Positions 37,063 through 47,845 are shown, counted from the stretch's first letter. The stretch is DNA of 64,000 nt from an uncultured Alphaproteobacteria bacterium (GCA_905479265.1 CAJQLX010000004.1:62001-126000), one strand, 5' to 3'. Notes: a model not told the origin generated them from the sequence alone. Numbers and translations are program-made.

Positions 37063-38841
37063 TTAGCCGACTTGCTGTGGGCGCATGTCGCTGATGTCGA
37101 TACCGGCAACAGAAACCGGCTTCTTCATCGCATCACGGCGGAACGGCTCACCCAGTTCTTGGTTCAGCACAACCTCGATAAAGGTTGTTACGCCGTCGTT
37201 CATTTGCTCTTTCACCGCTGTGTTCAACGCGTCGGTCAGGGACTCCATGGTGGAGACCTGAACGCCTTTAAGACCACAAGCGTCAGCGATTTTCGCGTAG
37301 TTCACATCGAGGTTCAGCTCAGTGCCAACAAAGTTGTCTTCGAACCAAAGCGTTGTGTTCCGCTTTTCCGCGCCCCACTGGTAGTTCCGGAAGATAACCA
37401 TGGTCACAGGCGGCCAGTCGTTGCGGCCACAGGCGGTCATCTCGTTCATGGAAATACCGAAAGCGCCGTCACCGGCGAAACCGACAACCGGAACGTCTGG
37501 CTGGCCGATCTTGGCACCGAGGATAGCGGGCAGACCGTAGCCACAGGGACCAAACAGGCCCGGCGCGAGGTACTTGCGGCCTTCGTCAAAGCTTGGGTAC
37601 GCGTTGCCAATCGCACAGTTGTTGCCGATATCGGAGGAAATGATCGCTTCCTTCGGCAAAGCGGACATGATCGCACGCCACGCCATACGGGGGGACATAC
37701 GCTCAGGCTCACGACCCCGCGCACGCTCGTTCCAGTTGGTGCCCGGATCGTCGTCTTCGTGGTCCATGGAGGTCAGCTGCTGTGACCAGCGGGATTTGGT
37801 TTCAGCAACCAAAGCCGTCCGAGCATCACGCTCAGCATCGCCGGCGGTTGCGGACAAGCGTGCAAGGATTTGCTCAGCCACCAGCTTTGCATCGCCCTGA
37901 ATGCCAACTTCGACGCGCTTGGTCAGGCCAATGCGGTCGGCGTTGATGTCAACTTGGATCAGCTTGGCATCCGTTGGCCAGTAATCGATACCGTAGCCCG
38001 GCAGCGTTGAAAATGGGTTCAACCGGGTGCCCAGCGCCAAAACAACGTCAGCCTTGTTGATCAGCTCCATCGCCGCTTTAGAGCCGTTGTAACCCAGTGG
38101 GCCACACGCCAGCGGGTGCGAGCCCGGGAAAGCGTCGTTATGCTGGTAGTTACAGCAAACCGGCGCATCCAACCGTTCAGCCAACTCAGCAGACGCTGGA
38201 ATAGCGCCAGCGAGGACGACGCCAGCGCCGTTCAGGATCACAGGAAACTTTGCGGTAGACAGCAGCTCGGCGGCACGGTCGATGGCGGTCTCGTCGCCTG
38301 CGGAGCGACCAATGCGGACGATCTGCGGCAGATCGATGTCGATCACTTGTGTCCAGTAATCGCGCGGCACGTTGATTTGTGCGGGCGCGGAACCGCGGAA
38401 GGCTTTTTCGATCACACGGTTAAGAACTTCCGCCACGCGAGACGGGTCGCGGACTTCTTCCTGATAGCACACCATGTCCTTGAACAGCGCCATTTGCTCA
38501 ACTTCCTGGAAACCACCCTGACCAATGGTCTTGTTCGCGGCCTGTGGCGTCACGAGCAGCAAGGGGGTGTGGTTCCAGTACGCCGTTTTGACCGGCGTGA
38601 CAAAGTTGGTGATGCCGGGGCCGTTTTGCGCAATCGCCATAGACATCTTGCCGCTTGCGCGGGTGTAGCCATCGGCGGACATGCCGGCGTTACATTCGTG
38701 CGCGCAATCCCAGAACTTGATCCCCGCTTGTGGGAACAAATCGGAGATTGGCATCATGGCGGAACCGATGATTCCAAAAGCGTGTTCGATGCCGTGCATC
38801 TGGAGCACTTTTACGAAAGCTTCTTCAGTCGTCATTTTCAT
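37063..38841 (-). CDS. xsc: Sulfoacetaldehyde acetyltransferase
   Basis: 592 residues, ThDP-dependent. The enzyme converts sulfoacetaldehyde plus phosphate to acetyl phosphate and sulfite, the desulfonation step for taurine, isethionate, sulfolactate and DHPS. Visible: AFGIIGSAMMPISDLFPQAG near the N-terminus (21-40), activating Glu49 in WDCAHECNAG, the near-invariant GPGITNFVTPVKTAYWNHTP, and the ThDP motif GDGAFGISMNEM to FRNYQWG. Length and these segments are specific to Xsc. It is divergent from an IclR gene and 28 kb from comDE, whose product is its substrate. Confidence 0.96.
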   Translation of the reverse strand: MKMTTEEAFVKVLQMHGIEHAFGIIGSAMMPISDLFPQAGIKFWDCAHECNAGMSADGYTRASGKMSMAIAQNGPGITNFVTPVKTAYWNHTPLLLVTPQAANKTIGQGGFQEVEQMALFKDMVCYQEEVRDPSRVAEVLNRVIEKAFRGSAPAQINVPRDYWTQVIDIDLPQIVRIGRSAGDETAIDRAAELLSTAKFPVILNGAGVVLAGAIPASAELAERLDAPVCCNYQHNDAFPGSHPLACGPLGYNGSKAAMELINKADVVLALGTRLNPFSTLPGYGIDYWPTDAKLIQVDINADRIGLTKRVEVGIQGDAKLVAEQILARLSATAGDAERDARTALVAETKSRWSQQLTSMDHEDDDPGTNWNERARGREPERMSPRMAWRAIMSALPKEAIISSDIGNNCAIGNAYPSFDEGRKYLAPGLFGPCGYGLPAILGAKIGQPDVPVVGFAGDGAFGISMNEMTACGRNDWPPVTMVIFRNYQWGAEKRNTTLWFEDNFVGTELNLDVNYAKIADACGLKGVQVSTMESLTDALNTAVKEQMNDGVTTFIEVVLNQELGEPFRRDAMKKPVSVAGIDISDMRPQQVG

Positions 38842-40156: not shown

Positions 40157-41329
40157 TCAGGAACAGAGATCGATGGCCTGACGGGTTTGCAACATCGAGC
40201 GACACCACAAGCCAAACCCGGTGGTGGCATGGGTTTTGAGCTCCAGCGCCCGCTCGTTTGACGTTTCCCGGCTCAACACGTTCAACAGCCGGATCCGCAC
40301 CTTTGAAGCGCTCGGTGTCATGGGACGCGGGGCGCGGTGAACAGACGTCAGCGGGATCGCTTCCAGCGCCTCCAAAACCGGCCCCATGGCGCTGCGGCGG
40401 TAGTAGAGCCGGAGCATCAAGCCAAAGTCAGACGTGCTCCCCCGCTCACTGATATCCACAGCACCGTGCAGCATGCCATTCCCCAACCCATAGGCAATGA
40501 CACGCCCTTTAACGTCCATCTCAAGCCCCCGAACAACGTGGGAATGATGCGCAATGATCAAATCTAAATCAGCACGGAACTGCGCTCGGCGGAAACGGTT
40601 GATGACATGATCTTCGGGCATCTGCTCGTATTCGAGCCCTTCGTGCAGACTCAAAACTTTGAAGGATTCCCCGCGACGCATCATCGCTTGCACGGTTTTC
40701 TCCCAATCAGGCGGGGAAACAACGCTCCATTGGCCCGGTTGTCCGCTGGAAGACGGTCGCGGGGCGTTGTCTGAAAGCCCCAGAGCGGCAAAGGCGATTT
40801 CTTGCTCACCCACGCGCCCGGTCTTTGCTTGTGACAGCGCCTCGGTCGTCCCCAAACCGTGGTGAATGACCCGGTCGTCGTAGTCCGACAGCGCGGCCAG
40901 CGTGGAAAGCTGACCTTCGCGCCCGAAATTACCGCTGCGGTCATTCGCGGTAGAAAGCAGGTTGAACCCCAAGTCCTCAACAAGATGTTTGAGCCCCGTC
41001 GTGTGCATTTGAAACCCAGCGCCCTGAGTCTCCGACGAGGTAAGCGGCTTTTGCGTCACCACAGCTTCGAGATTGGCGAAGTTGACATCGCCGATGATCA
41101 GCGGTCGGAGCGCGTGGGTATAGTGCGCCCACGCGCCCTTATTGGCACCCGCACGCAGCTTGCCCTCTGCAGCAAAAGCCACGTCGCCCAAGGCGGTCAC
41201 GATGGTTGCTTCTGTGGGAGAATTTGGGTCGACCGGCGGTATGTCTTCGGTCACCGCAGCGCAACCGCTCAACACCAGCGTCAGCCACCCCGCGCCTATC
41301 AGACTTAGTCTTCGCTCCACCCAAGCCAT
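40157..41329 (-). CDS. CapA-family (PGA_cap) metallophosphatase-fold lipoprotein
   Basis: 390 residues with GGAG 7 bases before the ATG. The N-terminus has a lipoprotein signal with lipobox LSGC (Cys22). The PGA_cap/CapA fold follows: VTALGDVAF (metal-binding Asp), GDVNFANLEAVVT (Asn-Leu-Glu), LLSTANDRSGNFG, LSLHEGLEYE and AHHSHVVRGLEM with the HH/SHV pattern. CapA proteins act in poly-gamma-glutamate or envelope polymer work. It is 74 bases downstream of the ATP-grasp gene and might be the last gene of that cluster. The lipid anchor is unusual for the family. Confidence 0.8.
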   Translation of the reverse strand: MAWVERRLSLIGAGWLTLVLSGCAAVTEDIPPVDPNSPTEATIVTALGDVAFAAEGKLRAGANKGAWAHYTHALRPLIIGDVNFANLEAVVTQKPLTSSETQGAGFQMHTTGLKHLVEDLGFNLLSTANDRSGNFGREGQLSTLAALSDYDDRVIHHGLGTTEALSQAKTGRVGEQEIAFAALGLSDNAPRPSSSGQPGQWSVVSPPDWEKTVQAMMRRGESFKVLSLHEGLEYEQMPEDHVINRFRRAQFRADLDLIIAHHSHVVRGLEMDVKGRVIAYGLGNGMLHGAVDISERGSTSDFGLMLRLYYRRSAMGPVLEALEAIPLTSVHRAPRPMTPSASKVRIRLLNVLSRETSNERALELKTHATTGFGLWCRSMLQTRQAIDLCS

Positions 41330-41403: not shown

Positions 41404-42546
41404 TTACCCGTTTTTCTGCGAATTCCAGCTTAGATCGAGGGTTGAGGCTGTCTCAATACTGCAGCGGTGCGCGCGTGCGATGCGCAGCAACTCAGCAAAG
41501 GCGCGTGCCTGATCCAACAGCGAAAGGCGGTCGTTGGGCCAGTGAGAAAGGCTTCTCAGCCGCCACGCCTTGCCCAAGGCTCGCATGCCGCCAACCAGGA
41601 CCGTCGGCAACCGCTCCCCCATCAGCAAGCCCGCCGACGCCCTGAAACGTGTTTCGCGGCCAGCGACGACAGCCTCGACCAGCCCGCGCTGGGGACCAAA
41701 GAAGTGAAACCCGCTGGTGCTGCGTGGATTGCATTCGAGCACGCGATAGCGCCCTGCTGCATCCTGCCGAAAATCGAACGACAACTGGCCCGTGATGGTC
41801 AATGTTTGCGCTATCGCACGGACCAGTGGCTCGATCGCCCAGTGGCGGTTTTCGTCAGCGGCTTCAAAGGCGATGCCTGCTCCGGTTCCGCCGCGTAACC
41901 GCACAACCGGGCGATAGGCTTGCAAAGCCAGCACCTGCCCATCGCGAACCAGTGCGGAGCAGCAGAGCTCTTCCCCCGGCAGGTAACGCTGTGCGATCCA
42001 TGGCACCTCTACGGTTGGTTCAATCGCGGATCGCTGGGTATCATCGGGGCATATAAGGGTGTCTGTACCAAAGCGCGAAAAGCACGGCTTGAAGACCCAA
42101 TCTTTACCCCTGACCGCTTCCCGCGCTGCGCGGCTTTCCAACCGGTGAAACTCAGGCGCAAAAGCGGGGGCGGTCTGTGCCACCAACGTGTTGAACCGCC
42201 CTTTGTCGTGCAGCGTGAGCAAGTCGTCCAAGGGCGGCGCATAGAGCTTGTCACCCCACGCTTTCCCCTGCGCTGCAGCGGCAAGGTGAAACACCTCCTC
42301 ACACGTTGGGAGAATGAGGCTGATTTGATGAAACTCGACAATCTTGGCCATGCGATGCGCAAAGGCGATGGGCTGTGTTTTGGGCGCAGGCAGATGTTCG
42401 AAGCAATCGACCATTTGACTGAACCGGCTCAGCGGTGCCTTGAGGCTGTCTGCAGCCACCACGCGCCAGCCAGCAGCGTTGAACAGGCGCGCCCAGTGCA
42501 AGGCCACCGGCGCCCGTGCGCCCGTAATCAGGACTGAGGGCTTCAT
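41404..42546 (-). CDS. ATP-grasp ligase
   Basis: 380 residues of the carbamoyl-phosphate-synthase-like ATP-grasp type. The N-terminal pre-ATP domain begins SVLITGARAPVALHWARLF. Lys153 in WVFKPCFSRFGT sits at the nucleotide site, a QRYLPGEELCCSALV segment follows, and the metal/ATP region reads YRVLECNPRSTSGFHFF. Members join a carboxylate to an amine through an acyl phosphate. The ATG overlaps the stop of the adenylating enzyme gene, so both belong to the five-gene operon. The substrate is unknown. Confidence 0.85.
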   Translation of the reverse strand: MKPSVLITGARAPVALHWARLFNAAGWRVVAADSLKAPLSRFSQMVDCFEHLPAPKTQPIAFAHRMAKIVEFHQISLILPTCEEVFHLAAAAQGKAWGDKLYAPPLDDLLTLHDKGRFNTLVAQTAPAFAPEFHRLESRAAREAVRGKDWVFKPCFSRFGTDTLICPDDTQRSAIEPTVEVPWIAQRYLPGEELCCSALVRDGQVLALQAYRPVVRLRGGTGAGIAFEAADENRHWAIEPLVRAIAQTLTITGQLSFDFRQDAAGRYRVLECNPRSTSGFHFFGPQRGLVEAVVAGRETRFRASAGLLMGERLPTVLVGGMRALGKAWRLRSLSHWPNDRLSLLDQARAFAELLRIARAHRCSIETASTLDLSWNSQKNG

Positions 42547-43802
42547 GTTCGCAGTCTTTCGACCCGGCGCAGTTTTCGGGTAAACAAGTCATCATGCGCC
42601 AGCGCTTCAAAGCTAATCTCCGCTTCCACACCCCGTCCACGCAGAACCGAACTCAGGGCCGCGCGCGCCTTGGCTTTGATCTCATCAGGCACCACAGACG
42701 GCAGGCGAAGAATCACGCGGCCTTCGTGGGTTTGCTGAATGCGGAAATCCGTGATCCGCGCGTCCGTGTCTAAAACCGCATTCCGCAGAATATCCGGTGT
42801 CACCATGACGTCACCAAACCAGAACACATCATCCCGCCGCCCAACGACTTCCGCCACAGGCTGCAGCGGTGAGCCACACGCGCAGGGTTGATCCTGCACC
42901 CGCAGCAAATCGTTCATTTCATAGCCCGCGATCAACTGATAGCGCCGCGAAAAATCGGTGATGACGGGGGATGCAAGCTCGTTGCTGACCCAATCAAAAC
43001 TGAACTTCACGTAATCTTCAGTCAGGTGCAGCGTCCCTTTCCGGCACGTCACCCCCAGCAATCCTTCTGTCGCCATATAAATTTGCCCCAAACGCAGGCC
43101 AAACGCGGCTTCGATTTCGGCGCGATCAGGGCCATCAAGGGTTTCGGCGGCTGAGAAAATGCGTCTCGGCGTCAAACGATCAAGATCGGTGTTGCGTGCG
43201 AGCCAGCTCAGAATCTTGGGCGGTGCAACCAGAACGGTGGGGTTGAGTTGCAACAGCTCATCAACCCATTGTTCCGGCCCAGACCGAAGATCAAAGAATT
43301 CGACCCGCAGCAACCGCGATTGATTACCAGCCTGATAGAGCGCTGAATTTTGCGGTAAAATAACAGCGACGCGCTGACGGGTGCGCCAGACCTCGGGCAA
43401 GGCTTTGGCAAGGATAACGCCCAGCCACTGATAGCGCTCAGCTTGCGTTATCACGTAAAGCCCCCGGTTGCCGCTGGTCCCCGTGGACATGCCGCACGCC
43501 ACGTCGGGGTGAACATAGCCAGACGGTAAGCCCCGGCGCACTTCTGCGGCCGTCAGGCGTTCTTGGTTGAAGGCTGCAAAATCGGCCATCAGCGACGCCT
43601 TGCTCATGCGCAGCGTGTTTGGATCATACTGGGGGAAGCTCTCTGAAACATGCGCTTTCCACAGCTTCATTTGGCTCTGCTGGTGCAGGTTCAGATCGGT
43701 GCGGCTTCTTAGCTTTGCCGCCAACCAGCGGGTGTGCAGAAAGGAACGCAGGACGCGGCCATTGGGACTATCGAACATCGAACCCGCAGCCCCCCGGATC
43801 AT
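42543..43802 (-). CDS. Adenylate-forming enzyme, coenzyme F390 synthetase-related
   Basis: Up to 419 residues. It resembles PaaK/F390-synthetase-type adenylating enzymes: the phosphate loop STGTSGNRG near 106-114, a YMATEGLLGV acid-binding stretch, and GRRDDVFWFGDVMVTP near the C-terminal hinge. F420 biosynthesis genes are not present here, so it likely activates another acid. The start is either ATG 43802 (35-base overlap with the MBL gene) or ATG 43778 (11-base overlap). It overlaps the ATP-grasp gene by 4 bases. It sits in the KAS III-epimerase-MBL cluster as a probable acyl-activating enzyme. Confidence 0.78.
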   Translation of the reverse strand: MIRGAAGSMFDSPNGRVLRSFLHTRWLAAKLRSRTDLNLHQQSQMKLWKAHVSESFPQYDPNTLRMSKASLMADFAAFNQERLTAAEVRRGLPSGYVHPDVACGMSTGTSGNRGLYVITQAERYQWLGVILAKALPEVWRTRQRVAVILPQNSALYQAGNQSRLLRVEFFDLRSGPEQWVDELLQLNPTVLVAPPKILSWLARNTDLDRLTPRRIFSAAETLDGPDRAEIEAAFGLRLGQIYMATEGLLGVTCRKGTLHLTEDYVKFSFDWVSNELASPVITDFSRRYQLIAGYEMNDLLRVQDQPCACGSPLQPVAEVVGRRDDVFWFGDVMVTPDILRNAVLDTDARITDFRIQQTHEGRVILRLPSVVPDEIKAKARAALSSVLRGRGVEAEISFEALAHDDLFTRKLRRVERLRT

Positions 43803-44577
43803 GACACAGAATCACCGTGCCCCCCGCTGCCTGAAACCCGCGCAGAAGATCAAGGCTCTGCTCCGCCGCTGGAACGTCTGACGCCACGCTCTTTGACATC
43901 CCAAACATCGGTTCTCTGTCGCTCAGTCCTTTTAGCAACCAATGCGCATCGACCGCGTAGAGGGTTTGACGATCATGCCAATAGACCCCGAAGTGTCCCA
44001 CGGCATGCCCCTCAAGCGGGACAATCGACACTTGGTCTTTGACCAAAATCCGACCGGTTCCCAAGCCATAGGGAAGCGCGATGGTTGGTAACTCTTCAAT
44101 GGCGTCGAGGCGGCTTGCATAGTCCGGCGGTAGCAGTTCGAGGAAACTGCCGTGTCCCAGTGCAGCCCGCACGGATCCAGCCTTCGACACCACATCATAA
44201 GCCTGCCGAGAGCCAATAAAACGAGCCTTTGTAAAACTCTTCAGCTCGCTGATGTGGTCAGCATGCAAATGGGTGACGATCACGGTTTGAACGTCTTCCG
44301 GCCTCTTGCCCTTGTCGGCCAAAATCTGCTGCACCTGTCCGGCTGCCTGCAAATCGGCTCGAAAAATCTGCGTATAGAGCCAAAGTCCAAAAGACTTCTT
44401 CGCGCCCCGACCATAGCACCGCGCGCCATAGCCGGTATCAATCAGCGTCAGGCCCAAGTCGGGATGCTCGAACAGGCCAAATCGCACGGGAAGCACGACC
44501 CGCGACCAGCCGCTCGACCGGTCGAGCAAGCGCCCCGGCGCAGCGATCGTCGCGCTGTTGTACAATTCCAGTTCCAA
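43768..44577 (-). CDS. Metallo-beta-lactamase fold hydrolase (lactonase-like)
   Basis: 269 residues. The zinc motif H103-L-H105-A-D107-H108 is intact, and later ligands appear in PLEGHAVGHFG, YAVDAHW and ILCHDPG, so two metal sites are likely. The overall pattern is close to N-acyl homoserine lactonases and related lactone or thioester hydrolases. The start must be TTG 44577, two bases after the epimerase stop, since no ATG lies near the N-terminus. In this cluster it may hydrolyse a lactone or thioester intermediate, by inference. Confidence 0.83.
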   Translation of the reverse strand: MELELYNSATIAAPGRLLDRSSGWSRVVLPVRFGLFEHPDLGLTLIDTGYGARCYGRGAKKSFGLWLYTQIFRADLQAAGQVQQILADKGKRPEDVQTVIVTHLHADHISELKSFTKARFIGSRQAYDVVSKAGSVRAALGHGSFLELLPPDYASRLDAIEELPTIALPYGLGTGRILVKDQVSIVPLEGHAVGHFGVYWHDRQTLYAVDAHWLLKGLSDREPMFGMSKSVASDVPAAEQSLDLLRGFQAAGGTVILCHDPGGCGFDVR

Positions 44578-44579
44578 CC

Positions 44580-45533
44580 TCAGGTCTCCGGCGTCTCAAA
44601 TGCGTTCTCAATCCCAACTTGTATCGGTATTGCCGATGACCAACCAAGCGCTTTCCGAGCCAGATCCGTATTCAATGTTAATGAAAAGGCAAAAATCCCT
44701 ATGCTATAGCGGGTAAACCGAGGCTCACCGGCCAACCGCAGCCCGCGATAAGCCCCCTCCAGCCCCCGCGCAGCCGCCAGCAAAATCGGCAGCGGCACAG
44801 GGCGCCACCGCAAAGCCAATCTCCGACGCTCAGCGATTTGCTCAACCAACTCTGTGAGGCGAACAGGCTCCTCGCCTGCGATATTGTACACTGCCGGAAC
44901 AGCGGCGGGTTTGAGCGACGCGAGGATCGCTGCGCATACGTCGTCAACGTGGGTCAGGTTGGTGACTGCCTCACCCCCGCGGATCATCGGCAATGGCCCG
45001 GCTGCGATTGCACGCTCCAACCGCGGCAACAGCGCTTGATCCCCCGGCCCATAGATGGCCCGAGGCCTCAAGATGACAGCAGGAACCGAAGAGGCTTGAA
45101 CCCGTTGTTCGGCTAGGGCTTTGGTCGCAGCATAATGATTGATGAAGGGGCGCTGGACCTTAGTCTCCAGCACATCGTACTGGTCGCAAAAATCGAAATA
45201 CAGCGCCGGTGTCGAGATATGAACGAAGCGCGTGACGCCCCGGCTTTCTGCCCAGCGGAGCACGTTTTCCGTCGCGTGGACGTTGTCTCGCTCAAAGTCC
45301 ACCAAAGCGCCCCATGGTGCCGAACGCGCCGCGCAATGAACGACGACATCGACATCGGGCAAAGCATCGAGGGACTTTGGCTGGCTCAAGTCCGCCGCGA
45401 CAAAGCGATGCCCCTTGGGCGCAGCATCACGGCGGCGCCCCGTACCCACCGGCACAAACCCCTGATCGGCCAAAACGCCCATCGCACGCCGGCCCAGAAA
45501 CCCCGTCGCGCCGGTCACCAACACCCGAGTCAT
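44580..45533 (-). CDS. NAD-dependent epimerase/dehydratase family reductase (3beta-HSD/OleD-like)
   Basis: 317 residues of an extended SDR. The nucleotide motif GATGFLG is at 8-14, and the catalytic Tyr-Lys pair is in HYAATKALAE. The sequence style, with VHCAARSAPWG and ISTPALYFDF, is that of the 3beta-HSD/OleD group that reduces 2-alkyl-3-ketoacids. It starts within the KAS III stop (ATGA overlap), and a ketosynthase coupled to an OleD-like reductase suggests beta-keto to beta-hydroxy reduction of a condensed acyl chain. That function is inferred. Confidence 0.82.
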   Translation of the reverse strand: MTRVLVTGATGFLGRRAMGVLADQGFVPVGTGRRRDAAPKGHRFVAADLSQPKSLDALPDVDVVVHCAARSAPWGALVDFERDNVHATENVLRWAESRGVTRFVHISTPALYFDFCDQYDVLETKVQRPFINHYAATKALAEQRVQASSVPAVILRPRAIYGPGDQALLPRLERAIAAGPLPMIRGGEAVTNLTHVDDVCAAILASLKPAAVPAVYNIAGEEPVRLTELVEQIAERRRLALRWRPVPLPILLAAARGLEGAYRGLRLAGEPRFTRYSIGIFAFSLTLNTDLARKALGWSSAIPIQVGIENAFETPET

Positions 45534-46546
45534 GCAATCAACGCCACCGCGCCAAATTGGACGCCCGCAGACGTTCCCAGCATCAGCACGCGGGCACCAT
45601 CTTGAATCTGCCCCTGCTCCCGCGCGTGGGCAAACGCTGTGGGGATCGACGCCGCAATCTGATTGCCGTGGCTTCGCGTGATATCGACATAGCGGTTTGA
45701 GCGCACTTGAAAGGCACGGGCCATGTGCAGCAGGCTCAGCGGGCTGGCCTGATGGGGGACAAAGAAATCAACCTCACCCCGGCTCCAACCAATCGAGTCC
45801 AAAAAGCCATCGAGAAACCCTGTAAACTGCCCCCGAACCACCCGGAAAAGAGCGTCTCCGCTCATCTGGAAATAGGCTTGCTCAAGGAAATGGGCGCTGT
45901 CGTCGTGGGGTGAGTTGTGCGTTCCACCGACGGGCAATTGGCACGCCTCATAGGCTGACGGGTGGCTCGCAAATGCCGCACCAACCACGCCGCGCCCCTG
46001 TGCCAACTCAACCACCCACGCCCCAGCACCATCGCCAAACAATCCAGCAACGTCCGGCGCTGTTTTCCATGGCAGAGCACAGGATGCCAGCTCGCTGCTC
46101 ACGATCAGAACACGCCTGGCCCGACCTGTTTCCAGATAACTCGCTGCGATATCCAAGGCAGATAGGGCGCTCAGGCACGTGGTGTTGACATCCAGCACCT
46201 GACACGCGCCATCTGGCAGACCAAGACCACGCTGGTAAAGCGGTGCTGTGCTGGGGATTAATTGGTGCGGAACAGCCGAGGCCGCGATGATGAGGTCCAA
46301 GCCATCTGCGCCAATATCCGCGCGTTCCAGTGCGGTTTGAGCCGCACGGAGCCCCAAGGCAACCTGCGTTTCTCGTCCAAGCCGATCGGCGATAAAGCGC
46401 GTCTTCACACCCGTCGCTGCCACCAGCGACCCCAGCGCCAATCCATGCGTCTGCTCCAACGTTTCAGACGACACCTGTGCCGCAGGCACGGCGTGCCCCC
46501 AACCGGTGATAGCAGCAGTCCGTTGCTGGAAGTTTGCGTTCACCAT
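45530..46546 (-). CDS. 3-oxoacyl-ACP synthase III-like ketosynthase (FabH/OleA group)
   Basis: 338 residues from ATG 46546, which has GAGGAG just upstream. The KAS III catalytic triad is complete: Cys124 in VNTTCLSAL, His265 in FVPHQAS, and Asn295 in SHGNQIAAS. It would condense an acyl-CoA or acyl-ACP primer with another acyl unit. The frame is open far upstream to 47737, but that extension runs antisense through the divergent gene and is not real. It is the first gene of the five-gene cluster operon. No acyl carrier protein gene is beside it. Confidence 0.87.
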   Translation of the reverse strand: MVNANFQQRTAAITGWGHAVPAAQVSSETLEQTHGLALGSLVAATGVKTRFIADRLGRETQVALGLRAAQTALERADIGADGLDLIIAASAVPHQLIPSTAPLYQRGLGLPDGACQVLDVNTTCLSALSALDIAASYLETGRARRVLIVSSELASCALPWKTAPDVAGLFGDGAGAWVVELAQGRGVVGAAFASHPSAYEACQLPVGGTHNSPHDDSAHFLEQAYFQMSGDALFRVVRGQFTGFLDGFLDSIGWSRGEVDFFVPHQASPLSLLHMARAFQVRSNRYVDITRSHGNQIAASIPTAFAHAREQGQIQDGARVLMLGTSAGVQFGAVALIA

Positions 46547-46669
46547 TTGCTCCTCAGTCATAGGCTTTTCACACGACCCTACCCCATTAACGTGTCGATG
46601 AAGCTTAAACTTGTCAATGTCTAATCTGTTCGCTATGGTCTCAACTGTGGAAAATCCGAGCCCCGCAAT

Positions 46670-47845
46670 ATGAGTGATCAGGCCGCAAAAAACCTCGCTG
46701 CGCTGGTGCAACAGACCGGCGCAAGCGCCTTGGTGCGTAACCTTGAGACCGAGGTTTTCACCCAGTGCGTTGGCGCGTGGACGGTTCCGATGAGTGTGAA
46801 CGCGGGCCTGCGCCGAACATGCTACATCAACTGCCCCAGCCGTGCCTTCCTCGACTATGGCGCGGAAGAACTCGACCGATTGACGGAAAATCGGTTGGTG
46901 CGTCTGGCCGGTCGTGGCGCGTTGGCGGGGTTTTCGCCGCTGGTTGCTGCGACGGGGATGGACCGTCAGGTGCAGTTGAATAACTGGCTGGTGGCAACAA
47001 ACATCCTCCCGCCCGCAAACCCGCAAGATTGGCTGAATGCCTTTGAAGACATCAGCACGCGACACGCAGGGTTCATCCCGGTTCTCCGTTCCGTGAACAG
47101 CGCGGCTCACGCGGCAAGCCTTGACGCTTTCCGCCGCGAAGGACTGGTCCTGCTGCCGATCCGCAAGATTTTTATTCGGGACTATGCCGTGGATCAAAAG
47201 TGGACAACCGACGAAACCAAGGATGCGAAACTGCTGGCGACAAGCGGTTTTACACGACGCCCCGGCACCTCGTTTTCTGCCGCTGAGTTCTGCCGTGCGG
47301 CGGACCTCTATGCCCAGCTCTATCTCGAAAAGTATTCTCGCCTGAATCCGCACTACACAGCTGAATTTTTGCAGCACGCTCAGGCCAAGCTCGATTTGAA
47401 CCTCGATGGCCTTTTTGACGCAAACGGCACCATGGTTGGTGTCATTGGCCGCAGCGAGCAGCACGGCACCCTCACGGGGCCCATCGTTGGCTATGACACG
47501 GCCTTGCCGCAGCGTTGGGGGCTTTATCGGCAGCTCCGTGCCATCAACCATGGCTACGCGCGCACAGGCCAGCGGTTGTATAACATGAGCGCAGGCGCTG
47601 AGCGGTTTAAAGAGCTGCGCGGCGGTCGGGCGCATGTGGAGTATATGGTGGCCGATTTTCGGTGCGCGACGCGGGTTCAGCGTCGGGCGGCGAAGGTTCT
47701 CGCCGCGCTGTTCAACCGCGCCGCTCGCACCCTGCAAAGCCCCAAAGATGAGCGGTGTGAGTCACTGAAAACCGGCATTGAGCGCCAGAATGAAGCGCAT
47801 TCAGGCCAAGAAAATCCTGTCTCTCGGCCTACAAACTCGTGCTAA
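46670..47845 (+). CDS. GNAT/FemAB-like acyltransferase of unknown function
   Basis: 391 residues. I do not recognise the family with confidence. The middle and C-terminal part, with LDGLFDANGTMVGVIGRSE, LPQRWGLYRQLRAINHGYA and LYNMSAGAERFKELRGGRA, has the look of a GNAT/FemAB-type transferase. The last 50 residues are charged and low in conservation. It is divergent from the KAS III gene across 123 bases, which suggests joint regulation, and it may transfer the product acyl group or an amino acid. No strong ribosome site precedes the ATG. Confidence 0.6.
   Translation: MSDQAAKNLAALVQQTGASALVRNLETEVFTQCVGAWTVPMSVNAGLRRTCYINCPSRAFLDYGAEELDRLTENRLVRLAGRGALAGFSPLVAATGMDRQVQLNNWLVATNILPPANPQDWLNAFEDISTRHAGFIPVLRSVNSAAHAASLDAFRREGLVLLPIRKIFIRDYAVDQKWTTDETKDAKLLATSGFTRRPGTSFSAAEFCRAADLYAQLYLEKYSRLNPHYTAEFLQHAQAKLDLNLDGLFDANGTMVGVIGRSEQHGTLTGPIVGYDTALPQRWGLYRQLRAINHGYARTGQRLYNMSAGAERFKELRGGRAHVEYMVADFRCATRVQRRAAKVLAALFNRAARTLQSPKDERCESLKTGIERQNEAHSGQENPVSRPTNSC

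Follow-up and report, generated by a model that had tools for sequence, protein, structure and literature searches.

A Conserved Four-Gene Cassette as a Candidate Small Acyl-Metabolite Cluster in Alphaproteobacteria, Escherichia coli and Other Bacteria

A stretch of 64,000 nucleotides from an uncultured Alphaproteobacteria bacterium (GCA_905479265.1, CAJQLX010000004.1:62001-126000; hereafter the window) carries six genes, five of them closely packed on the minus strand and one divergent, the core of which is a quartet encoding a β-ketoacyl-acyl carrier protein synthase III (KAS III), an extended short-chain dehydrogenase/reductase (SDR), a hydrolase of the metallo-β-lactamase (MBL) fold and an adenylating enzyme related to F390 synthetase. 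The quartet is present at every examined locus recovered through the F390-type protein, in three phyla and with its order almost always kept, and this recurrence shows that the gene arrangement is not due to chance. We propose, with a probability of roughly 0.4, that it forms a self-contained, horizontally distributed cassette for a small acyl-derived metabolite, primed by the PaaK-like ligase.

Co-Conservation and Distribution of the Quartet

The loci were recovered with the F390-type protein as the only query, followed by inspection of its neighbors, and the co-occurrence counts rest on loci obtained in this way. At 18 of 18 genome loci, two of them cut by contig ends, the genes stand in the fixed order KAS, SDR, MBL, F390. 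Nine further strong matches to the TIGR02304 model, found among 398 Pseudomonadota genomes drawn, were accompanied by the quartet in all nine cases, as were the matches in the 11 plasmid records opened (11/11), which include Paenibacillus and Pontibacillus (Bacillota) and Fusobacterium vincentii, the order in the latter being SDR-MBL-F390-KAS. The megaplasmid pMPPla107, whose cassette genes are dispersed across about 20 kb, was considered as an exception to this rule and rejected as such, its KAS, SDR and MBL genes having been found about 15 kb upstream. In the Pseudomonas megaplasmids pBASL58 and pMPPla107 (L067 and L072/L088), small hypothetical genes spread the cassette apart, and the SDR of pBASL58 reads as shorter pieces. 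A previous interpretation of the window, made from its sequence alone, had proposed a search for co-conservation of the five families as a check; the recurrence of the quartet clearly contradicts the outcome that would have refuted it, namely that the genes do not co-occur in other genomes.

Among complete E. coli genomes, a match was detected in 672 of 5,426 (about one in eight), and in 671 the coverage of the locus at one place reaches 80% or more. In the records of E. coli Nissle 1917 and LF82 the cassette lies between narI and the tyrTV tRNAs; it is also present in JJ1886 and ST131 strains. The 386-kb record NZ_CP141085.1 (L089), labeled as an E. coli plasmid, contains narGHJI, the cassette, galU and hns in chromosomal order and is therefore probably a misassembled piece of chromosome. 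In alphaproteobacteria the spread is patchy, with a strong match in 3 of 385 genomes, the genome of the window among them. A metagenome-assembled genome (MAG) of the same genus has the six-gene block in common with the window and none of the flanking genes. Pairwise protein distances are correlated between cassette members (r 0.87-0.96), and most deep nodes of a concatenated tree are well supported. Taken together, the patchiness, the block without shared flanks, the correlated distances and the tree fit a cassette transferred as a unit, the correlations alone fitting common descent as well. A phage origin was also considered and rejected: 50,697 phage records yielded no good match to the F390-type protein, and their KAS matches were distant (32% identity or less).

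Organization of the Locus in the Window

The features of the locus are the following, in window coordinates:

45530-46561 (start may be 46546), minus strand: KAS III, FabH-like, NCBIfam PRK07204 clade (PF08541/PF08545)
44580-45533, minus strand: extended SDR of the NAD-dependent epimerase/3β-hydroxysteroid dehydrogenase/OleD superfamily, presumed β-keto reductase (PF01370, E 2.8e-33)
43768-44577, minus strand: MBL-fold hydrolase, N-acylhomoserine lactone (AHL)/pyridoxolactonase-type fold, TTG start (metal ligands and AlphaFold2 model)
42543-43802 (start may be Met9), minus strand: F390-synthetase-related PaaK-type adenylating enzyme, TIGR02304 clade (profile scores)
41404-42546, minus strand: ATP-grasp ligase, PRK06849 clade, accessory set A (NF005315 score, catalytic residues)
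46670-47845, plus strand: divergent FemX/MprF-fold acyl- or aminoacyltransferase of the GCN5-related N-acetyltransferase (GNAT) type, accessory set A (fold of AlphaFold2 model)
46562-46669, no strand: intergenic region between the divergent KAS III and GNAT genes (position only)

The KAS and SDR genes overlap by 4 bases, a gap of 2 bases separates SDR from MBL, the MBL and F390 genes overlap by 35 bases (11 if the latter starts at Met9), and F390 and ATP-grasp by 4 bases. All six genes, with these positions, overlaps and gaps, are as previously described. Judged by its position alone, the intergenic region is likely to be a shared promoter region. Pfam and NCBIfam models identify the KAS III, the extended SDR, the metallo-β-lactamase fold, a weak AMP-binding/TIGR02304 signal and the ATP-grasp protein, and they assign the divergent gene to no family.

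Family Relationships and Active Sites

Catalytic residues were followed in alignments of up to 36 relatives (KAS, n = 33; MBL, SDR and F390-type enzyme, n = 36; ATP-grasp, n = 24). Those that had been reported as intact in the window are all present, and they are invariant or nearly so in the relatives. In the KAS the triad C129/H270/N300 (Cys124/His265/Asn295 in the shorter reading of the gene) is invariant in 33/33. The protein exceeds the cut-offs of PF08541/PF08545, reaches 246 bits on NF005541 (PRK07204; cut-off 402) and 164-191 bits on FabH-type models, under their curated cut-offs, and lies nearest to FabH-like models and CorB/MxnB-type structures rather than to OleA. Its Cys-His-Asn triad and overall similarity to FabH mark it as a FabH-like KAS III. 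In the SDR, S107/Y134/K138 are invariant in 36/36.

The F390-type enzyme retains E246, R322 and K410 in 36/36 relatives and the P-loop in 34-36/36. It scores 242.8 bits over its full length on TIGR02304 (cut-off 251.9), a model on which its cluster relatives reach up to 755 bits (E. coli F390 protein), and of the cut-offs of TIGR02304, PRK07204 and PRK06849, cluster members from Paenibacillus pass two. A profile search leads to phenylacetate-CoA ligases and to PaaK-like ligases of aryl acids (4r1l, E 4.5e-18), with which the enzyme shares a conserved zinc-type motif, C-H-CxC (C253/H259/C307/C309). On the strength of its adenylation motifs and this site, the enzyme is assigned to the PaaK superfamily, which includes F390 synthetase; unlike the other members, it belongs to a separate clade that is always linked to KAS, SDR and MBL genes at the examined loci. 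The ATP-grasp protein, in which K153, E271 and N273 are invariant in 24/24, scores 249 bits over its full length on NF005315 (PRK06849; cut-off 406) and displays only remote similarity to carbamoyl-phosphate synthase.

The metal ligands of the MBL hydrolase (H103, H105, D107, H108, H191, D210 and H259) are conserved in 36/36. Its AlphaFold2 model (pLDDT 87) matches AHL lactonases and 4-pyridoxolactonase with Z scores of 22-25, well above β-lactamases, the superposition on AhlX having a Z of 24.9 and an rmsd of 2.9 over 239 residues. With the dinuclear ligand pattern HxHxDH-H-D-H and the predicted fold of a lactonase, it may be regarded as a lactonase-type hydrolase, and the fold (Z about 25) bears out what had been surmised before. 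At the third residue past the bridging Asp, where AhlX and 4-pyridoxolactonase have the lactonase Tyr, the window protein has W213, the column being Trp in 32 of 36 relatives, Phe in three and Tyr in one. PqsE is a distant match, appearing in Foldseek only at rank 44 and below (TM 0.46), where the model fits AHL lactonases better; it is also absent from the best 50 VIA-align matches, an absence compatible with a relation.

The GNAT protein has no Pfam match and no sequence match to any solved chain; its orthologues do reach Acetyltransf_6. Its AlphaFold2 model (pLDDT 85.8, with good confidence to residue 358) contains a two-domain GNAT fold spanning residues 1-344, to which FemX/MprF-type structures match with Z 13-16: FemX with Z 15.9 (rmsd 3.6 over 264 residues), aminoacyl-tRNA-dependent peptide synthases of the streptothricin type with 15.7 and MprF with 15.1. 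The FemAB-like character once suggested for this divergent gene therefore has structural backing. In its predicted fold the protein is like the aminoacyl-tRNA-dependent transferases FemX and MprF, but it differs from them in lacking a detectable sequence match to solved chains.

Modular Tailoring Genes

Beyond the core, 37 cluster loci were tallied for accessory genes. Set A, consisting of the ATP-grasp gene, to which the GNAT, a Rieske protein or both may be added, occurs at 24 of these, and set B, made up of a PAP2 enzyme, a fatty-acid hydroxylase and one or two desaturases, at 5; the two are never found together (0/37), and the remaining loci have the core only. In the Fusobacterium vincentii copy (NZ_CP084075.1, L070:4243-6843) their place is taken by a GT21-family (HpnI-like) glycosyltransferase and a further SDR, which stand ahead of the cassette together with a protein of 215 residues and no recognized family. 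Set B is carried by E. coli, other enterics and Burkholderia; an example in E. coli is L066:11032-17913 (NZ_CP022686.1 4902074-4908955). The 20 GNAT orthologues are always accompanied by ATP-grasp. The window, like its nearest relatives, has set A without the Rieske protein, and a search of its genome revealed no clear Rieske orthologue, only general Rieske proteins with about 31% local identity. The ATP-grasp and GNAT genes, which the sequence-only reading had placed in the cluster, are optional tailoring rather than part of the core.

A Proposed Route and Its Alternatives

FabH-type enzymes normally use an acyl-CoA primer and malonyl-ACP (ACP, acyl carrier protein), and the presence of a PaaK-like CoA ligase beside a FabH-type KAS points to the ligase as the source of that primer. 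It would activate a carboxylic acid, the probable result being a CoA thioester, which FabH-type enzymes naturally accept as primer. The KAS III would then add one malonyl-derived unit by means of the cell's own fatty-acid ACP; no hidden ACP was recognized near the core among the small open reading frames (ORFs) of a Pseudomonas megaplasmid copy, which by eye are hydrophobic or fragments of the SDR. The OleD-type SDR would reduce the β-ketone, and the lactonase-fold MBL hydrolase would release or cyclize the β-hydroxyacyl product. In set A loci such as the window, ATP-grasp and the FemX-like transferase, often with the Rieske protein, might attach an amine or amino acid, while in set B loci the membrane hydroxylase, desaturase and PAP2 enzymes might decorate the product instead. 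The gene content, intact active sites, co-conservation in three phyla and modular tailoring were observed; each of these chemical steps is inferred. By analogy, the route most resembles the logic of the Pseudomonas quinolone signal (PQS), with a reduction step added. PqsA, PqsD and PqsE are a carboxylate-CoA ligase, a KAS III and an MBL-fold hydrolase used together, and the cassette combines the same three kinds of enzyme as the alkylquinolone pathway; unlike that pathway, it has an extra SDR and a PaaK-type ligase, and no PqsBC pair was seen.

Several points weigh against this route. The F390-type gene stands last in the core, and the sequence is compatible with adenylation as either the opening or the closing step. 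Aryl acids are the usual substrates of PaaK relatives, whereas the tailoring enzymes of set B speak for long alkyl chains. The reaction of the MBL hydrolase is made uncertain by the Trp that stands where lactonases have Tyr, and, as regards transfer, distance correlations cannot tell co-transfer from shared species history.

It is possible, although on balance unlikely, that the core builds a long-chain hydroxylated backbone of a membrane lipid, which the accessory enzymes would hydroxylate, desaturate, dephosphorylate, glycosylate or aminoacylate. The PAP2, fatty-acid hydroxylase and desaturases of set B would suit such a role, and the GNAT of the window shares its fold with the lipid aminoacylator MprF. 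In addition, a GT21-family glycosyltransferase and an SDR lie next to the Fusobacterium copy. However, many clusters contain no membrane-bound tailoring enzyme at all, and the PaaK relatives of known structure are mainly aryl-acid ligases.

The sequence-only reading had drawn a parallel to Ole. In an Ole-like scheme, the KAS III would join two acyl chains, the SDR would reduce the product, the F390-type enzyme would adenylate the β-hydroxy acid and close a β-lactone, and the MBL hydrolase would open or process it. The cassette does resemble OleABCD in assembling a thiolase-superfamily condensing enzyme, a reductase of the OleD superfamily, an adenylating enzyme and a hydrolase, here of lactonase fold, in one operon. 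Set against an authentic ole operon (L084), the SDR is 28-31% identical to OleD, a member of the same superfamily, and the KAS is weakly related to OleA (27% identity). Nevertheless, the glutamate that marks OleA, whose role there is family knowledge, is present in the OleA of L084 but is replaced by Leu or Ile in 34/34 cluster KAS. The SDR attains only 146.6 bits on the OleD model against a curated cut-off of 580. The F390-type enzyme has no meaningful similarity to the OleC of L084, and its profile search returns PaaK ligases instead of OleC. The hydrolase has the MBL fold, and an α/β-hydrolase of the OleB type does not recur in the cassette loci examined. Membership in OleABCD was accordingly rejected on all four counts, and the scheme as a whole is improbable. 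With a PaaK-like rather than OleC-like enzyme, whose best solved relatives are phenylacetate-CoA ligases, and with the OleA glutamate replaced, nothing specifically supports a lactone-closing role for the adenylating enzyme. What endures of the sequence-only reading is a real, co-conserved operon of biosynthetic type, and of its Ole parallel the kinship of the SDR and, weakly, of the KAS.

Quite improbable as well is a pathway in which the KAS, SDR and MBL enzymes make a free β-hydroxy acid that is adenylated last and then turned into an acyl-amide signal by the ATP-grasp or FemX-like enzyme, which is the acyl-amide idea of the sequence-only reading stripped of Ole. The gene order, in which F390 and the ligase follow KAS, SDR and MBL, and the amide-forming folds of set A agree with such a sequence of events. 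On the other hand, an ATP-grasp enzyme activates its own substrate, which makes prior adenylation redundant for that step, and both amide formers are missing from set B and core-only clusters. Finally, a degradative or detoxifying pathway is very improbable, for although PaaK and lactonase relatives are often catabolic, the KAS III with its intact condensing triad, the FemX-like transferase and the desaturases represent anabolic families, and the cassette has no conserved uptake or β-oxidation genes.

Neighboring Genes

In the window, a CapA/PGA_cap-family gene (40157-41329) follows the ATP-grasp gene on the same strand after 74 bases. It was considered as a seventh member and set aside: it is not found in close relatives, and because it has no match in the same-genus MAG it is probably outside the cassette. 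Farther away, at 37063-38841, an ORF of 592 amino acids resembles, by eye only, a thiamine-diphosphate enzyme such as sulfoacetaldehyde acetyltransferase. Elsewhere, genes that look like a LuxI-type AHL synthase and a LuxR regulator (by eye, no search having been made) lie beside an enteric copy of the cassette (L050:745-2113). In two Rhodobacteraceae (L046:12398-15283 and L048), Ter-associated genes, namely StiP with a PELOTA domain, PRTase_2/TRSP and a HAD-like gene, directly adjoin set A clusters.

Significance

Individual members of the cassette fall in or near the unnamed NCBIfam families TIGR02304, PRK07204 and PRK06849, which are catalogued singly and without function. Neither the NCBIfam models nor the open-licence literature searched contain a description of the combination; the papers there that mention F390 synthetase do so in unrelated contexts or in bare lists, and the cassette may already have been described elsewhere. 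We regard it as a putative small acyl-metabolite cluster, with a realistic chance that it merits a class of its own. The odds are about even that the quartet represents an unrecognized class of small biosynthetic cluster, with no ACP, polyketide synthase or nonribosomal peptide synthetase of its own, spread horizontally over at least three phyla and responsible for a product family that common gut and uropathogenic E. coli make, and likewise marine and plant-associated alphaproteobacteria. If so, the products could be signals, or membrane-active lipid amides or lactones. A strictly conserved and catalytically intact operon is present in probiotic, adherent-invasive and ST131 E. coli, in marine MAGs and in plant-associated bacteria. 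With the E. coli copy, as in Nissle 1917, the question can be put to a direct test in an organism that is well studied and easy to handle. The modular tailoring sets, in turn, predict products that would be chemically related yet distinct.

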